From NCBI RefSeq assembly GCF_003752415.1, contig NZ_RKHG01000001.1, positions 992,001 to 1,056,000 on the forward strand: 64,000 bases of DNA, written 5' to 3'. Of the stretch, positions 49,074 through 53,545 are shown one piece after another. The notes beneath the pieces are model-generated. The model ran no database searches, was not told where the DNA came from, and was given only the letters and a program-made list of their open reading frames with translations. The position numbers and the translations under genes are program-made. Position 1 is the first letter of the stretch. Each line of letters opens with the position of its first letter. This DNA is from Luteococcus japonicus (GTDB lineage Bacteria > Actinomycetota > Actinomycetes > Propionibacteriales > Propionibacteriaceae).

Positions 49074-49950
49074 GACCACTCCCATGCCGGCCGAGCCCCT
49101 TCCCACGTCGGCCGAGGCCGTCGAGGCCACCCGCTGGCGTCTGGACATCGCCTATGACGGCACCGCCTTCTCCGGCTGGGCCACCCAGCCCGACCTGCGC
49201 ACCGTCCAAGGCGAGCTGGAGCGCTGGACCGCCCAGGTGCTGCGCCTCCCCGAACCGGTCCAGCTGACCGTCGCCGGCCGCACCGACGCCGGCGTGCACG
49301 CCCGCGGACAGGTGGCGCACGTGGACCTGCCCGTCGCTGTCGACACGTCACGTCTGCAGCGACGCCTGGAACGGGTACTCGACGAGGACCTGCAGGTCCT
49401 GCGGGTCTCGCGAGCTCCCGAAGGTTTCGATGCCCGCTTCTCCGCCCTCTGGCGTCGCTATGTCTACCGGGTCTGGGACGAGCAGAGCACTCGCGATCCC
49501 CTGCTGCGCGGCCACATCACCCGGATCCGTGGCGTCCTGGACGTGGCGGCCACCAATCACGCCGCACGGATGCTGCTGGGCCTGCACGATTTCGCGCCCT
49601 TCTGCAAGCCACGCGACGGCGCCACCACCATCCGTACCCTGACCGGCCTGCATGCCGAGCGCACCGCCGACGGCATCGTGGAGTTCACCGTCACGGCCGA
49701 TGCCTTCTGTCACTCCATGGTCCGCTCGCTGATGGGGGCGATGACCACGGTCGGGACCGGCCGCAAGGACCAGGCCTGGCTGGCGGAGGTGATGGGATCC
49801 CCCAAACGCCACAACGGTGTGCTGGTCATGCCAGCCAAGGGCCTGTGCCTGGAGGAGGTCCGCTACCCCGCCGACGACCGGCTCGCCGAGCGTGCCAACC
49901 TCTCCCGTGCGGTCCGCACCCTGCCCGAGACATCCGAGGAAGCCCGATGA
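49066..49950 (+). CDS. truA: tRNA pseudouridine synthase A
   Basis: 294-residue TruA, forming pseudouridine 38-40 in the anticodon stem-loop. It shows LDIAYDGTAFSGWATQPDLR, the catalytic Asp in VAGRTDAGVHARGQVAH, RRYVYRVWD and DAFCHSMVRSLMGAMTTVGTG. ATG 49066 lies inside the end of trmB. In most actinobacteria truA follows rplQ; here it is 6.8 kb away from rplQ and on the opposite strand, so it has moved. Confidence 0.95.
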   Translation: MTETTPMPAEPLPTSAEAVEATRWRLDIAYDGTAFSGWATQPDLRTVQGELERWTAQVLRLPEPVQLTVAGRTDAGVHARGQVAHVDLPVAVDTSRLQRRLERVLDEDLQVLRVSRAPEGFDARFSALWRRYVYRVWDEQSTRDPLLRGHITRIRGVLDVAATNHAARMLLGLHDFAPFCKPRDGATTIRTLTGLHAERTADGIVEFTVTADAFCHSMVRSLMGAMTTVGTGRKDQAWLAEVMGSPKRHNGVLVMPAKGLCLEEVRYPADDRLAERANLSRAVRTLPETSEEAR

Positions 49951-50552
49951 GCCACTACTTCACCACGCCCGACGGACCTGAGAAGCGGCGCGAGATCCGG
50001 GCCACCATCTGGGGTCACGAGCACACCTTCATCACCGCCAACGGTGTCTTCTCGGGCAGCCGGCTGGACCCGGCGACGAAGATCATGCTCGACGAGGTGC
50101 AGCCGCCGGCCGACGGTGGCCGACTGCTGGACCTGGGCTGCGGCTACGGCCCCATCACGGTCGCCCTGTCAGTGGCCTGCCCTACCAGCACCATCGACGC
50201 CGTCGACGTCAACGAGCGCGCCCTGGCCCTGACCGCGGACAATGCCCGGTGCATCGGCGCCGCAGACCGGGTCCGTGCCATCACCCCGGAGCAGGCGGAG
50301 CCCACCGTGCGCTACGACGAGATCTGGTCCAACCCGCCCATCCGGATCGGCAAGCCCGCGCTGCACGAACTGCTGCTCACCTGGCTTCCTCGTCTGGCCG
50401 ACGGCGGCCGTGCCGTGATGGTGGTCGGCAAGAACCTGGGAGCCGACTCCCTGGCCCGCTGGCTGACGGAGCAGGGCTACCGATGCGAACGACTGACCTC
50501 CAGCAAGGGTTTCCGGGTGCTGGAGGTTCGCCCCGGCGCGCCGGTGCAGTAG
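49947..50552 (+). CDS. Class I methyltransferase, RsmC-like
   Basis: 201-residue SAM-dependent methyltransferase. Motif I is LLDLGCGYGPITVALSVACP, the SAM-acidic loop is IDAVDVNERAL, and the catalytic motif IV is EIWSNPPIRIGKPALHELL, the NPP(F/I)H type of RNA base-N methyltransferases (RsmC/RsmD-like, guanine N2 of 16S rRNA in E. coli). It lacks the N-terminal pseudodomain of enterobacterial RsmC, as usual for the short actinobacterial form. It overlaps truA by ATGA. Its last three bases overlap the first stem of the riboswitch at 50551. Confidence 0.88.
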   Translation: MSHYFTTPDGPEKRREIRATIWGHEHTFITANGVFSGSRLDPATKIMLDEVQPPADGGRLLDLGCGYGPITVALSVACPTSTIDAVDVNERALALTADNARCIGAADRVRAITPEQAEPTVRYDEIWSNPPIRIGKPALHELLLTWLPRLADGGRAVMVVGKNLGADSLARWLTEQGYRCERLTSSKGFRVLEVRPGAPVQ

Positions 50553-50639
50553 TCTGCCGCTGTCGTACCCAGGGAAAGCCGGTGCAAGTCCGGCACTGAC
50601 CCGCAACCGTCACAGTCGGAGCTCCTGGTGCGGCGGACT
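50551..50639 (+). promoter_or_regulatory. Cobalamin riboswitch (short actinobacterial form)
   Basis: The conserved core GGGAA-GCCGGTG-AAGTCCGGC (50572-50594) and CTGACCCGCAACCGT (50596-50610) are present, in the order of the B12 aptamer. A closing helix AGTCTGCCGC (50551-50560) pairs with GCGGCGGACT (50630-50639) with one G-U pair. The long 3' arms of the classical enterobacterial element are missing, as in the compact forms known upstream of actinobacterial corrinoid-uptake genes. It ends 81 bp before the GTG of the secreted protein gene, so adenosyl- or other cobalamin would control that gene. Confidence 0.88.
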
Positions 50640-50720
50640 CATCACCACCCGTCGTGGTCCGCGGGACGAGTCGTGGGCATCGAACCCGCGGCCGTGCGCG
50701 GCCCGCTCGAAAGGACTTCC

Positions 50721-51335
50721 GTGCCCACCACCTCCGCCAAGCTGCTTGCCTCCGCTGCCGCTGCCCTGGCCTTCTCGCTGGCCCCCGGCGCAGCCCTCGC
50801 CGCCGATGCCGCCCCCGCCCGGGTGATGCCCGCCGACGCCGTCTCCGACTGCTCCAGCCAGGGCAAGGTCTGGCTGGTCGTGCAGGACTCCAAGGGCAAG
50901 GCGCTGGTGGACAAGTGCGTCGAGACCGCCGCCACCGGCTCCGAGCTGCTGACCAAGGCCGACGTGAAGACCACGCTGGACCCGAAGACCAAGATGATCT
51001 GCACCATGGAGGGCGAGCCGGCTGCCTGCCCGACCAAGTTCGACGGCAACTACTGGCACTACTACACCGCCGCCAAGCCCGGCACCTGGGCCTTCAGCCA
51101 GAAGGGCGCCGACCAGGCCAAGCCCGTCGCCGGTGGCGCCGAGGGCTGGTGCTACGGCAAGGAGTGCACCCCGGCCAAGCCCGGCACCACCCCGGCCGCC
51201 ACTGCCACCCCCTCGGCCGCCCCTGCCGCGGACGAGAAGAAGAGCAACAAGGGCACCATCACCACCGTCCTGGTCGCGGCGATCGTCGGCGGTCTGGTGG
51301 CCGCCTTCTACGTGGCCAAGCGCAAGAAGTCCTGA
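50721..51335 (+). CDS. Membrane-anchored surface protein under B12 control, DUF4430/transcobalamin-C-like
   Basis: 204 residues. A signal peptide covers residues 1-33 (LLASAAAALAFSLAPGAALA). The mature domain (about 45-140) reads KVWLVVQDSKGKALVDKCVE, GSELLTKADVKTTLDPKTKM, GEPAACPTKFDGNYWHYYTA and GTWAFSQKGAD. The order of beta strand, 'ELL' helix, small Cys pair and W-x-Y-Y strand resembles DUF4430, the fold of the transcobalamin/intrinsic-factor C-terminal domain. An Ala/Pro/Thr stalk and a C-terminal membrane helix VLVAAIVGGLVAAFYVAK with KRKKS tail anchor it outside. GTG 50721 has AAAGGA nine bases upstream. The riboswitch and fold together suggest capture of corrinoids; this is inference. 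No B12 transporter is adjacent. Confidence 0.8.
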   Translation: MPTTSAKLLASAAAALAFSLAPGAALAADAAPARVMPADAVSDCSSQGKVWLVVQDSKGKALVDKCVETAATGSELLTKADVKTTLDPKTKMICTMEGEPAACPTKFDGNYWHYYTAAKPGTWAFSQKGADQAKPVAGGAEGWCYGKECTPAKPGTTPAATATPSAAPAADEKKSNKGTITTVLVAAIVGGLVAAFYVAKRKKS

Positions 51336-51436: not shown

Positions 51437-51986
51437 TCACCCCTTGCTGTAGGTGACCTTCTTGAGCACCTCGGGCCAGCTACGGTCCAGCACCTGGCCT
51501 CCCCAGATCACTGAACCGGCCAGCAGCGCCATCCCGTACAGCGGCGCCACGCAGAGCAACAGCCAGCCCAGCCAGGGCCGCCCGCCCGCTGATCCCGGCC
51601 GAGATGTGCATCCACAGCGGCGTCCCGTCGTAGCTGATCTCCTGGGCCACCGCCAGCGATCCCATCAACAGCATGGAGAAGATCGGTGGGAACAGGATGC
51701 CGCGCCCGCTGGCCATGGAGTTCTCCGCAGAGCCGCCAATCAGGCTCGGGGCCAGCAGCAGCGTGCCGAGCGGCCAGCCCAGCGTGAGCACCGCACAGCC
51801 GACGGTGGTGGAGCCGCCGTGCAACTGCTGCGCGGCGCCGCGCAGCCTGAGCAGGGCCACGGACAGCCAGACCAAGGCGCCCAGCGCGTAGAGACCCGCC
51901 ATCACCAGGCCGATGATCGTGGTCGCCTGGCCCTGCAACGAGCGCTTGAGCAGCGTCAGTTTGAGTCGGACGAGTGTCCCAACCAT
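51437..51986 (-). pseudogene. Decayed ABC-2 exporter permease
   Basis: The N-terminus is intact (VGTLVRLKLTLLKRSLQGQA, then LVMAGLYALGALVWLSVALL) from ATG 51986, but it jumps after about 100 residues to a C-terminal piece (LLMGSLAVAQEISYDGTPLW, HISAGISGR) that in full-length family members of about 500 residues lies far downstream. After ISGRAALAG the frame shifts; the proper end (LLLCVAPLYGMALLAGSVIW ... VLKKVTYSKG) is in another frame with a stop at 51437. So there is an internal deletion plus a frameshift. It overlaps the ATPase remnant, as the intact operon would. Confidence 0.8.
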
Positions 51987-52752
51987 GCCAGCCCCTCCCC
52001 CGCATCGATCGTGCCGCCACCCACCAGCTCGATGAAGCGGTCCTGCAGTCGTCGCCCCTGGGTCACCTCGGAGGTCGGGCTGATCGCCAACACCCGCCCG
52101 GCGGCGACCACCGCGACGGCGTCGCACAGACTCTCCACCAGCTCCATCACATGGCTGGAAAGCACGACGGTGCCGCCACCGGCAACGAAGTCATGGAGGA
52201 TCTTCCGGATGGCCTGCCCCGAGACCGGATCGACTGCCTCGTAGGGTTCGTCCAGTACCAGCAGCCGCGGGTTGTGCACCAGCGCGCAGCCAGACCGATC
52301 TTCTTGGTCATGCCCGCCGAATAGTCGCACACCAGCGTGTTGGCGTCAGCTGTGAGTCCGAGAGCATGCAGCAGGGCCTCAGCTCGCGGCTCGATCTGGT
52401 CGGGAGCGACGCCGCGCATGCCAGCGGCGAAACGCAACAGTTCCAGCCCGCTGGGCCAGTCGAAGAGTCGCAGCCCGTCGGGTAGCACGCCCATCATCGC
52501 CTTGGCCGCGACGGGGTCGCTCCAGACGTCATGGCCCCAGAACTCAACCTGTCCGGCATCGGGCCGCAGCAACCCGGTGGCCATGCCCAGGCTGGTGGTC
52601 TTGCCGGCACCGTTGGGTCCCACCAACCCGAACAGGCAGCCGGACGGCACGACAAGACTGAGATTGTCCAGGGCCGCCTTCGGCCCGAACCGCTTGAGCA
52701 GATTGCGGATCACCAGGGCGGGGGCGCCGTCGTCGCCTCGTGCTTGACTCAT
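51956..52752 (-). pseudogene. Frameshifted ABC exporter ATPase
   Basis: Starts at ATG 52752 (SQARGDDGAPALVIRNLLKR) with Walker A LVGPNGAGKTTSLGMATGLL and the signature region DYSAGMTKKIGLA (YSxGMxxK, a variant of LSGGQ). Near 52292 one base is missing; translation leaves the frame, and Walker B (ALVHNPRLLVLDEPYEAVDP) and the switch His region (VVLSSHVMELVESL) continue in another frame to 51956. Restoring one base would give a normal 265-residue ATPase. It overlaps the broken permease, so the whole exporter appears dead. Confidence 0.82.
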
Positions 52753-52942
52753 TTGCCCACTACATCGCGCCACCGGCCCAGAACCACTGCCCACAAGGAC
52801 AATTGGCCGTGGATAGCGCTGGCGGCGAACAAGGATGGCCTCGGCGGGAACAAAGTGCCTAGGATCGGTGTTGTCCCAAGGAAAGCCCCTTCAACAGGGG
52901 CTCCAGGCCTTGCCGCCTGGCGAAGACGGAAAGAGGATTTAC

Positions 52943-53545
52943 ATGGCTGTTTACACCCTGCCCGATCTTGACTACGACTACAGCGCCCTCGCGCCGCACA
53001 TCGCGCCCGAGATCATGGAGCTGCACCACTCCAAGCACCACGCCACCTACGTGACCGGCGCCAACACCGCGCTGGAGAAGATGGAGGAGGCCCGCGCCAA
53101 GGGTGACTTCGCCAACATCAACAAGCTGGAGAAGGATCTGGCCTTCCACCTGGGCGGCCACGTCAACCACTCCGTCTTCTGGAAGAACATGTCCCCCGAG
53201 GGCGGCGGCCGCCCCGAGGGTGAGCTGTCCAGCGCGCTGGACGAGTTCTTCGGCTCCTTCGACGCCTTCCAGGCCCAGTTCAACGAGAATGCCAAGGCCA
53301 TCCAGGGCTCCGGCTGGTCCGTGCTGGCCTGGGACACCCTCGGCAAGCGCCTCAACGTGCTGCAGCTCTTCGACCAGCAGGGCAATGTCCCGCTGGGCCA
53401 GACCCCGCTGCTGCAGCTGGACATGTGGGAGCACGCCTACTACCTGCAGTACAAGAACGTGAAGGCCGACTACGTCAGCGCCTGGTGGAATGTCATCAAC
53501 TGGGCCGACGTGACCGAGCGTTTCACCAAGGCCCAGCAGGCCTGA
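52943..53545 (+). CDS. sodA: Superoxide dismutase, Fe/Mn family
   Basis: 200-residue Fe/Mn superoxide dismutase, detoxifying superoxide in the cytoplasm. Metal ligands are His27 region ([13 protein letters not shown]), the His in [20 protein letters not shown], and the Asp and His of [22 protein letters not shown]. Its closest look is to the propionibacterial enzymes known to work with either Fe or Mn; metal choice cannot be read from this. AAGAGGA lies about 7 bases before ATG 52943. A strong hairpin follows. Confidence 0.95.

Follow-up and report, generated by a model that had tools for sequence, protein, structure and literature searches.

A 204-codon gene stands directly behind a cobalamin riboswitch in a 64,000-nucleotide stretch of the Luteococcus japonicus genome (contig NZ_RKHG01000001.1, positions 992,001 to 1,056,000; called the window below), and its product is probably a beta-domain-only surface catcher of corrinoids that feeds an energy-coupling factor (ECF) importer encoded 109 kb away. 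Since in many relatives the gene is adjacent to a vitamin importer, the capture of B12-like molecules for uptake is its most likely role. The protein would stand on a short stalk outside the cytoplasmic membrane and display a single domain with the predicted fold of the smaller, C-terminal half with which transcobalamin and intrinsic factor contact B12. When intracellular adenosylcobalamin falls, the AdoCbl-II riboswitch would permit expression, the displayed protein would bind cobalamin or a related corrinoid, and the corrinoid would then be handed to the S component of a dedicated ECF importer consisting of EcfT, a fused EcfA-A ATPase and the S component. The ligand, the direction of regulation and the hand-over are what we infer in this scheme. 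An outside-facing corrinoid-capture protein had already been proposed in a preliminary description of the sequence, and computation supported that proposal with a riboswitch match above its cutoff, a predicted fold, and linkage of relatives to ECF genes and cobalamin riboswitches; it also revealed a separate ECF operon in the host genome.

The riboswitch was found with the Rfam covariance model AdoCbl-II (RF01689), which matched positions 50556-50634 (+) from the first to the last of its 81 positions with 46.4 bits, compared with a gathering cutoff of 36.5 (E 4.9e-8). It was the sole Rfam match above gathering in the window and the sole RF01689 match genome-wide, with all 109 candidates scored. 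This match above the cutoff confirmed the cobalamin riboswitch that the preliminary description had placed directly ahead of the gene. Its 10-bp closing helix, in which 50551-50560 pairs with 50630-50639 (one G-U pair), was evident in the sequence and also formed in the fold of minimum energy. Inside the helix this fold differed from the Rfam structure, and the folding energy was ordinary (z 0.37); thus, the evidence for a riboswitch is the covariance model and not raw stability. The core CTGACCCGCAACCGT occurred exactly once, and at two mismatches 0.25 copies were expected and at least one copy was present in 22 of 100 shuffles, so the core motif alone is little proof. As judged from its sequence, the element at 50551-50639 would bind adenosylcobalamin and control expression. 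The stretch 50551-50735 folded no better than its own shuffles and had an interior unlike that of Rfam, so control may be either translational or transcriptional. The GTG start at 50721 sits 86 bases past the aptamer and is preceded by AAAGGA at 50710-50715; the frame has 204 codons, a stop at 51333-51335 and GC contents of 0.61/0.57/0.95 at the three codon positions.

Export and anchoring of the 204-amino-acid protein were judged from hydropathy only, with hydrophobic windows lying within residues 6-31 at the N terminus and within 176-201 at the C terminus (best 180-198). The signal peptide, the Ala/Pro/Thr stalk and the anchor agree with the earlier picture of an exported, stalked and C-terminally anchored one-domain protein. 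The domain has six cysteines (44, 66, 94, 103, 144 and 149), and C44, C66, G73, W112, Y114, G138 and W143 belong to the 12 invariant columns of A1, the beta-domain alignment. For residues 29-165, aligned with 20 sequences of related loci, AlphaFold returned a model with a predicted local distance difference test score (pLDDT) of 89.8 and a predicted template modeling score of 0.82. In a Foldseek search of PDB with this model, ranks 1-17 were filled by transcobalamin or haptocorrin (15 chains) and by the bacterial protein RUMGNA_00854 (two chains), with probabilities of 0.99-1.00, and the probability at rank 18 was only 0.25. For 15 entries VIA-align gave Z scores of 9.0-9.8, with root mean square deviations (rmsd) of 2.8-3.0 across 92-94 residues; one of these entries was RUMGNA_00854 and the other 14 were animal carriers (intrinsic factor among them), and the next entry scored 5.0. 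The VIA alignment spans nearly the whole beta domain, and in the model two short strands (56-58 and 65-68), which might be the beta-hairpin insert of transcobalamin-like domains, follow a helix at 45-51. These matches to the animal carriers support a predicted transcobalamin C-terminal-type beta-grasp fold for the domain, as the preliminary description had suggested. The likeness to DUF4430 claimed there stood by predicted fold (AlphaFold, Foldseek and VIA) and failed by the Pfam model PF14478, which had no match here and matched in 2 of 14 control genomes. Neither phmmer nor profile searches of the PDB sequences found transcobalamin, and identity in the structural alignments was 10-18%; the relation to transcobalamin therefore rests on the predicted fold. 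The sole useful sequence lead was the NCBIfam family SCO2322 (NF040672), which covered part of the domain at 23.9 bits, below its membership cutoff of 85. Weak matches to Pfam CD1107-like and DUF6480 and a match to NCBIfam MmdD were set aside as located on the stalk and anchor. Filamin-B, a sequence match to PDB (E 0.005), was not among the listed fold matches.

Relatives were collected with profiles for the beta domain (A1), the ECF S component (A2) and an alpha/alpha toroid domain (A4), which is N-terminal in the two-domain animal carriers. A scan of genome contigs with the single window protein gave 590 stretches that fit the pattern and zero relatives, and the scan with alignment A1 yielded 17 loci from 34 stretches. 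We examined 37 loci, namely 20 regions and these 17 named loci, of which 33 were distinct (L083, L085, L090 and L094 were left out as repeats of L063, L062, L067 and L069). In searches of 96 genomes, at most 31 candidates per genome were scored for A1, 26 for A2 and 19 for A4, and absences are correspondingly softer than that of a toroid from the host's own genome. A1 matched 68 of the 96 genomes, the own genome and the A1 source genomes counted, which argues that the gene is real; A4 matched 52. The recurring gene order was methyltransferase, (toroid), beta domain, ecfT, ecfAA, ecfS and superoxide dismutase. By eye, the methyltransferase was the upstream neighbor in 13 of the 33 distinct loci and superoxide dismutase the far-side neighbor of the ECF operon in 11. 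The ecfT gene was present in 23 distinct loci (on the opposite strand in L068) and a toroid protein in 15; 11 loci had ecfT and no toroid, one of them (L095) truncated just upstream by a contig end. Across genomes, A2 was found in 67 of 68 with A1 versus 11 of 28 without it (Fisher 1e-10), the weakest S-component match counted as present having 42.6 bits (G021). Within the window's own family, taken as Propionibacteriaceae and including Cutibacterium, Propionibacterium cyclohexanicum and Propioniferax innocua, the corresponding figures were 37 of 38 versus 2 of 19. The exception with A1 and no A2, G011, is a 71% complete genome in which the contig ends right after ecfT. A first Fisher table, for P0001 with the S component, had given 51 of 53 versus 27 of 43. 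The genome lists for these tests and the list of loci with an upstream Rfam match were compiled by hand.

The preliminary description had suggested a search for the riboswitch-gene pair in relatives, and cobalamin riboswitches did recur along with the genes. RF00174 or RF01689 scored above cutoff immediately ahead of the gene for the beta domain or the toroid in 14 of the 33 loci, the core CTG[AT]C[CG]CGCAACCGT lay upstream in 20, and one or the other was present in 23. The core motif played no part in choosing the loci, and all of its 24 copies in the 37 loci (4 of these being duplicates) fell 30-319 bases upstream of the matched beta-domain or toroid stretch. The window has a full-length RF01689 element, and among the relatives 13 of the 14 distinct loci above cutoff had RF00174 only, and the remaining one, L081, had RF00174 plus a second RF01689 element (43.9 bits) ahead of a toroid-beta fusion. 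Among the loci counted as negative, contig ends truncate L062 and L095 close to the gene, and the cobalamin elements of L072 lie approximately 5 and 7.5 kb upstream. SCO2322-type proteins scored above the NCBIfam cutoff in 31 genomes, and 7 of the 8 such loci that we examined had the core motif upstream and ecfT-ecfAA-ecfS adjacent, L123 having neither motif nor ecfT. RF00174 was above cutoff in one of the eight (L119), and Rfam may underscore the SCO2322-type element because it is a compact variant. The SCO2322-type loci with a cobalamin riboswitch core upstream are L117-L122 and L124.

The importer itself was located elsewhere in the host genome. An operon at 929562-933086 (-) carries ecfT, a fused ecfAA and ecfS, all on the same strand, and is preceded by RF00174 at 933190-933329 (-; 45.4 bits). 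EcfT is encoded at 931983-933086 (-; 467 bits) and the S component at 929562-930341 (-; 407 bits), with the fused EcfA-A ATPase between them, and the riboswitch gene begins 109 kb away, at 1042721 on the contig. The earlier statement that no transporter is adjacent thus holds within the window, and the search for ECF loci that it had called for uncovered this related transporter behind a cobalamin riboswitch of its own. At least 10 RF00174 elements lie above cutoff in the genome (150 of 326 candidates scored), beside genes that include cobBC, cobN, cobI, cobM and that of the methylmalonyl-CoA mutase small subunit. The A4 toroid profile matched neither the 204-amino-acid protein nor anything else in the genome, where all 42 candidates were scored. 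A toroid-free form can nevertheless be a catcher, because the separately expressed beta domain of human transcobalamin binds cobalamin and extensive washing was needed to free it, according to passages of PMC5599065.

The same architecture might serve a ligand other than cobalamin itself. Candidates are precursors of corrinoids and other cobamides (cobinamide, incomplete corrinoids or lower-ligand variants), which the host would remodel. The genes for corrin synthesis and adenosylation in the host would allow a salvaged precursor to be finished, and the A2 S-component profile matched no solved structure at E values up to 1, leaving room for another specificity; moreover, ECF-CbrT is described in part of PMC5997447 as transporting cobinamide too. 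Control by an adenosylcobalamin riboswitch does not discriminate between these ligands, and the fold matches include the analogue-binding haptocorrin as well as the stricter transcobalamin (PMC5599065). We consider such a ligand unlikely.

Much less probable still is cobalt uptake, in which the linked ECF genes would import cobalt and the surface protein would help to bind the metal. In the locus of A. timonense (L067), EcfT scored above the cutoff of the CbiQ model PF02361, and the ATPase was below cutoff for the ECF models TIGR04520/04521; among the matches listed for it, only the cobalt model cbiO (TIGR01166) was above its curated cutoff (216.7 versus 211.8). The cbiM gene of P. freudenreichii has a predicted cobalamin riboswitch upstream (PMC11494915), and the structural neighbor RUMGNA_00854 is titled a putative metal-binding protein. 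On the other hand, the L. japonicus genome has a separate CbiM at 2911319-2911936 (179 bits), the L067 S component matched PF12822 below its cutoff and none of the CbiM models in the tables, and no histidine-rich or acid-rich site was evident by eye in A1. The L067 toroid protein and the larger one of L078 both matched SCO2321_fam below its cutoff.

Five Cutibacterium-type loci (L062, L064, L084, L086 and L087) also lack an adjacent ecfT, and in G035 the S component is approximately 34 kb off. This bears on whether the window gene is a relic, an orphan left without function after the transporter genes had gone from the locus and the exporter had decayed. In L067 and L068 the ECF genes stand between the catcher gene and an ABC exporter pair, which is itself followed by sodA, and in the window the ECF genes are gone and a broken remnant of that exporter pair is directly beside the catcher gene. 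In the simplest history, an ancestral operon at this locus would have lost its ECF trio. Loss of function itself appears highly improbable, since the gene keeps its open frame, its invariant residues and both signal peptide and anchor, the riboswitch is above cutoff, and the ECF trio survives elsewhere in the genome, each gene as one open frame, behind a cobalamin riboswitch; an adjacent ecfT is lacking in the Cutibacterium-type loci as well.

A Cutibacterium-type protein of L064 (5053-7578, -) begins with a beta domain, continues with leucine-rich and Pro/Thr repeats and finishes in LPSTGV; a riboswitch core lies upstream of it on the minus strand. In the fusion proteins of L064 and L086 the last residues are LPHTGV, and these LPxTG-like motifs are at the extreme end with no membrane stretch. 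Divergent cobalamin riboswitches or cores precede the toroid and beta-domain proteins of L064 and L086. A 2022 study reported cobalamin riboswitches of C. acnes upstream of adhesin-like fragments of unknown role (in part of PMC9600381), and together with the repeats of L064 this would suit a surface adhesin or immune-facing protein that reuses the fold and is merely regulated by B12. Against that role stand the small size of the window protein, a single domain on a stalk, and the presence of ecfT in most family loci, and we give it hardly any credence. The homologues of L063 (P. cyclohexanicum) and L068, which belong to one genus, show by eye a Cys in a lipobox-like setting behind the signal and lack a membrane stretch at the C terminus; anchoring may persist there by another route. 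The beta-domain protein of L074 (8228-9604, -) carries FG-GAP-like repeats (by eye) and has a riboswitch core upstream, with no ECF profile match within 18 kb.

Toroid and beta domain are fused into one protein in G035 and in Cutibacterium porci, and all ten Foldseek matches of the C. porci fusion below 1e-3 were transcobalamin. We rejected the toroid fold by itself as a marker of B12 carriers, given that terpene cyclases and GH76 enzymes reach equal Z scores with the C. porci toroid.

Several observations weigh against a corrinoid catcher. Of the 33 loci, 10 lack ecfT and 10 lack a detected riboswitch or core, the cobalt model was the only one above cutoff among the matches listed for the L067 ATPase, and the p-values for co-occurrence of A1 and A2 are confounded by descent. 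At the level of the domain, Foldseek returned no PDB match with an E value below 0.001, PF14478 was silent on both protein and genome, and the A5 profile found no transcobalamin among PDB sequences, its best match being a thaumatin-like protein (E 0.11). The C. porci fusion model had a mean pLDDT of only 68.4 with a low-confidence beta half, and in 9 of its 10 transcobalamin alignments the rmsd was near 22, its domains being placed unlike those of transcobalamin. Because no toroid partner was found in the genome, an affinity of the two-domain type is not expected. A separate catcher would in principle be unneeded, since ECF S components are themselves regarded as substrate binders (in passages of PMC5997447). 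Finally, the host has B12-synthesis genes beside its riboswitches, whereas carriers of related proteins usually lack key ones, as stated in part of PMC1796856.

Those related proteins form the transcobalamin-like clade of soluble-ligand-binding beta-grasp (SLBB) domains defined by Burroughs et al. in 2007, who proposed that it scavenges B12 or its precursors (passages of PMC1796856). A bacterial transcobalamin-like scavenger encoded next to CbiO/CbiQ-type genes is therefore a type already predicted in print. As described there, exported transcobalamin-C-type beta-grasp proteins, stand-alone or fused to a toroid, occur in operons with a CbiO-like ATPase and a CbiQ-like membrane protein, chiefly in low-GC Gram-positives, planctomycetes and some archaea. 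The genomic link of that clade recurs here at the family level, through ecfT, and in the host through its distant ECF operon. Unlike that description, our case concerns actinobacteria, a cobalamin riboswitch, a beta domain that stands alone and apart from the transporter, and a host that has genes for B12 synthesis; PMC1796856 nowhere uses the word riboswitch. The domain resembles transcobalamin, intrinsic factor and haptocorrin in predicted fold, and some relatives share their toroid-plus-beta arrangement, but the window protein differs from the animal carriers in lacking the toroid, in being membrane-anchored and in its low identity to them. It shares a W-x-YY ... G-x-x-EGW region with the families SCO2322 (NF040672) and SCO2321 (NF053823), although it is not a member of SCO2322 as curated. 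Like the B12 transporter ECF-CbrT (part of PMC5997447), the system would use an ECF-type module for corrinoid uptake; unlike it, it has an A2 S component without a match among solved structures, its own EcfT and fused EcfA-A and, in relatives, an adjacent gene for an extracellular catcher.

As far as our literature search shows, the actinobacterial set, the riboswitch control and the toroid-free form unlinked from its transporter seem to be new, and so, equally tentatively, do the occurrence in a host that has genes for B12 synthesis and the connection with SCO2321 and SCO2322. The search found no mention of SCO2322 and, at the level of titles and abstracts, no riboswitch-controlled actinobacterial transcobalamin-like protein, which is weak evidence of novelty with most subscription journals outside the search. 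The chances appear evenly balanced that there is an actinobacterial branch of ECF vitamin importers with a dedicated extracellular catcher, a bacterial counterpart of transcobalamin. This catcher would consist of the beta domain by itself, of two proteins that carry toroid and beta domain separately, or of a fusion of both, and would widely be under cobalamin riboswitches. If this is true, a testable function would be assigned to the SCO2321 and SCO2322 families, which would be tied to an ECF transporter and to cobalamin riboswitches, and some ECF importers would rely on a catcher outside the membrane that is separate from them. In skin Cutibacterium, the adhesin-like genes under riboswitch control could then encode corrinoid-capture proteins, a candidate answer to the question, left open in print in part of PMC9600381, of why cobalamin riboswitches precede surface-protein genes there. 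With their single domain, such bacterial proteins would also be minimal models of the way in which the human carriers may hold B12.

Features of the riboswitch gene and its neighborhood, in window positions
Feature	Positions	Strand	Evidence
Small-domain methyltransferase gene (labeled rsmC-like)	49947..50552	+	PF05175, 97.5 bits
AdoCbl-II (cobalamin) riboswitch aptamer, core 50556-50634 plus closing helix	50551..50639	+	RF01689 score; helix from sequence and fold
Leader, aptamer to start codon, with AAAGGA at 50710-50715	50640..50720	+	Sequence; fold ambiguous
Gene for exported, membrane-anchored transcobalamin-beta-domain-like protein (predicted), 204 amino acids	50721..51335	+	Open reading frame, homologues
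Signal peptide (predicted), residues 1-27	50721..50801	+	Hydropathy; Ala-x-Ala at 25-27 by eye
Beta-grasp domain (predicted), residues 44-149	50850..51167	+	Alignment A1, cysteines, AlphaFold model, fold matches
Ala/Pro/Thr-rich stalk, residues 150-177	51168..51251	+	Sequence
C-terminal membrane anchor (predicted, approximately residues 178-198) and basic tail AKRKKS	51252..51332	+	Hydropathy
Broken ABC exporter remnant: ATPase in two frames, permease as short pieces	51443..52773	-	tblastn of L067/L068 proteins; PF00005
Superoxide dismutase gene	52835..53545	+	PF00081/PF02777

The closing helix of the riboswitch begins within the preceding gene, its bases 50551-50552 being the last two of the methyltransferase stop codon (50550-50552), and because of this two-base overlap the methyltransferase gene and the riboswitch gene may share a transcript. 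The exporter pairs related to the remnant downstream are long open frames in L067 and L068. The strongest cobalamin riboswitch among the genomic candidates scored, with 94.3 bits, lies at L111:2338-2563 (+), and approximately 1.3 kb downstream of it is an open frame that matches ribonucleotide reductase beta-subunit models below their cutoffs.

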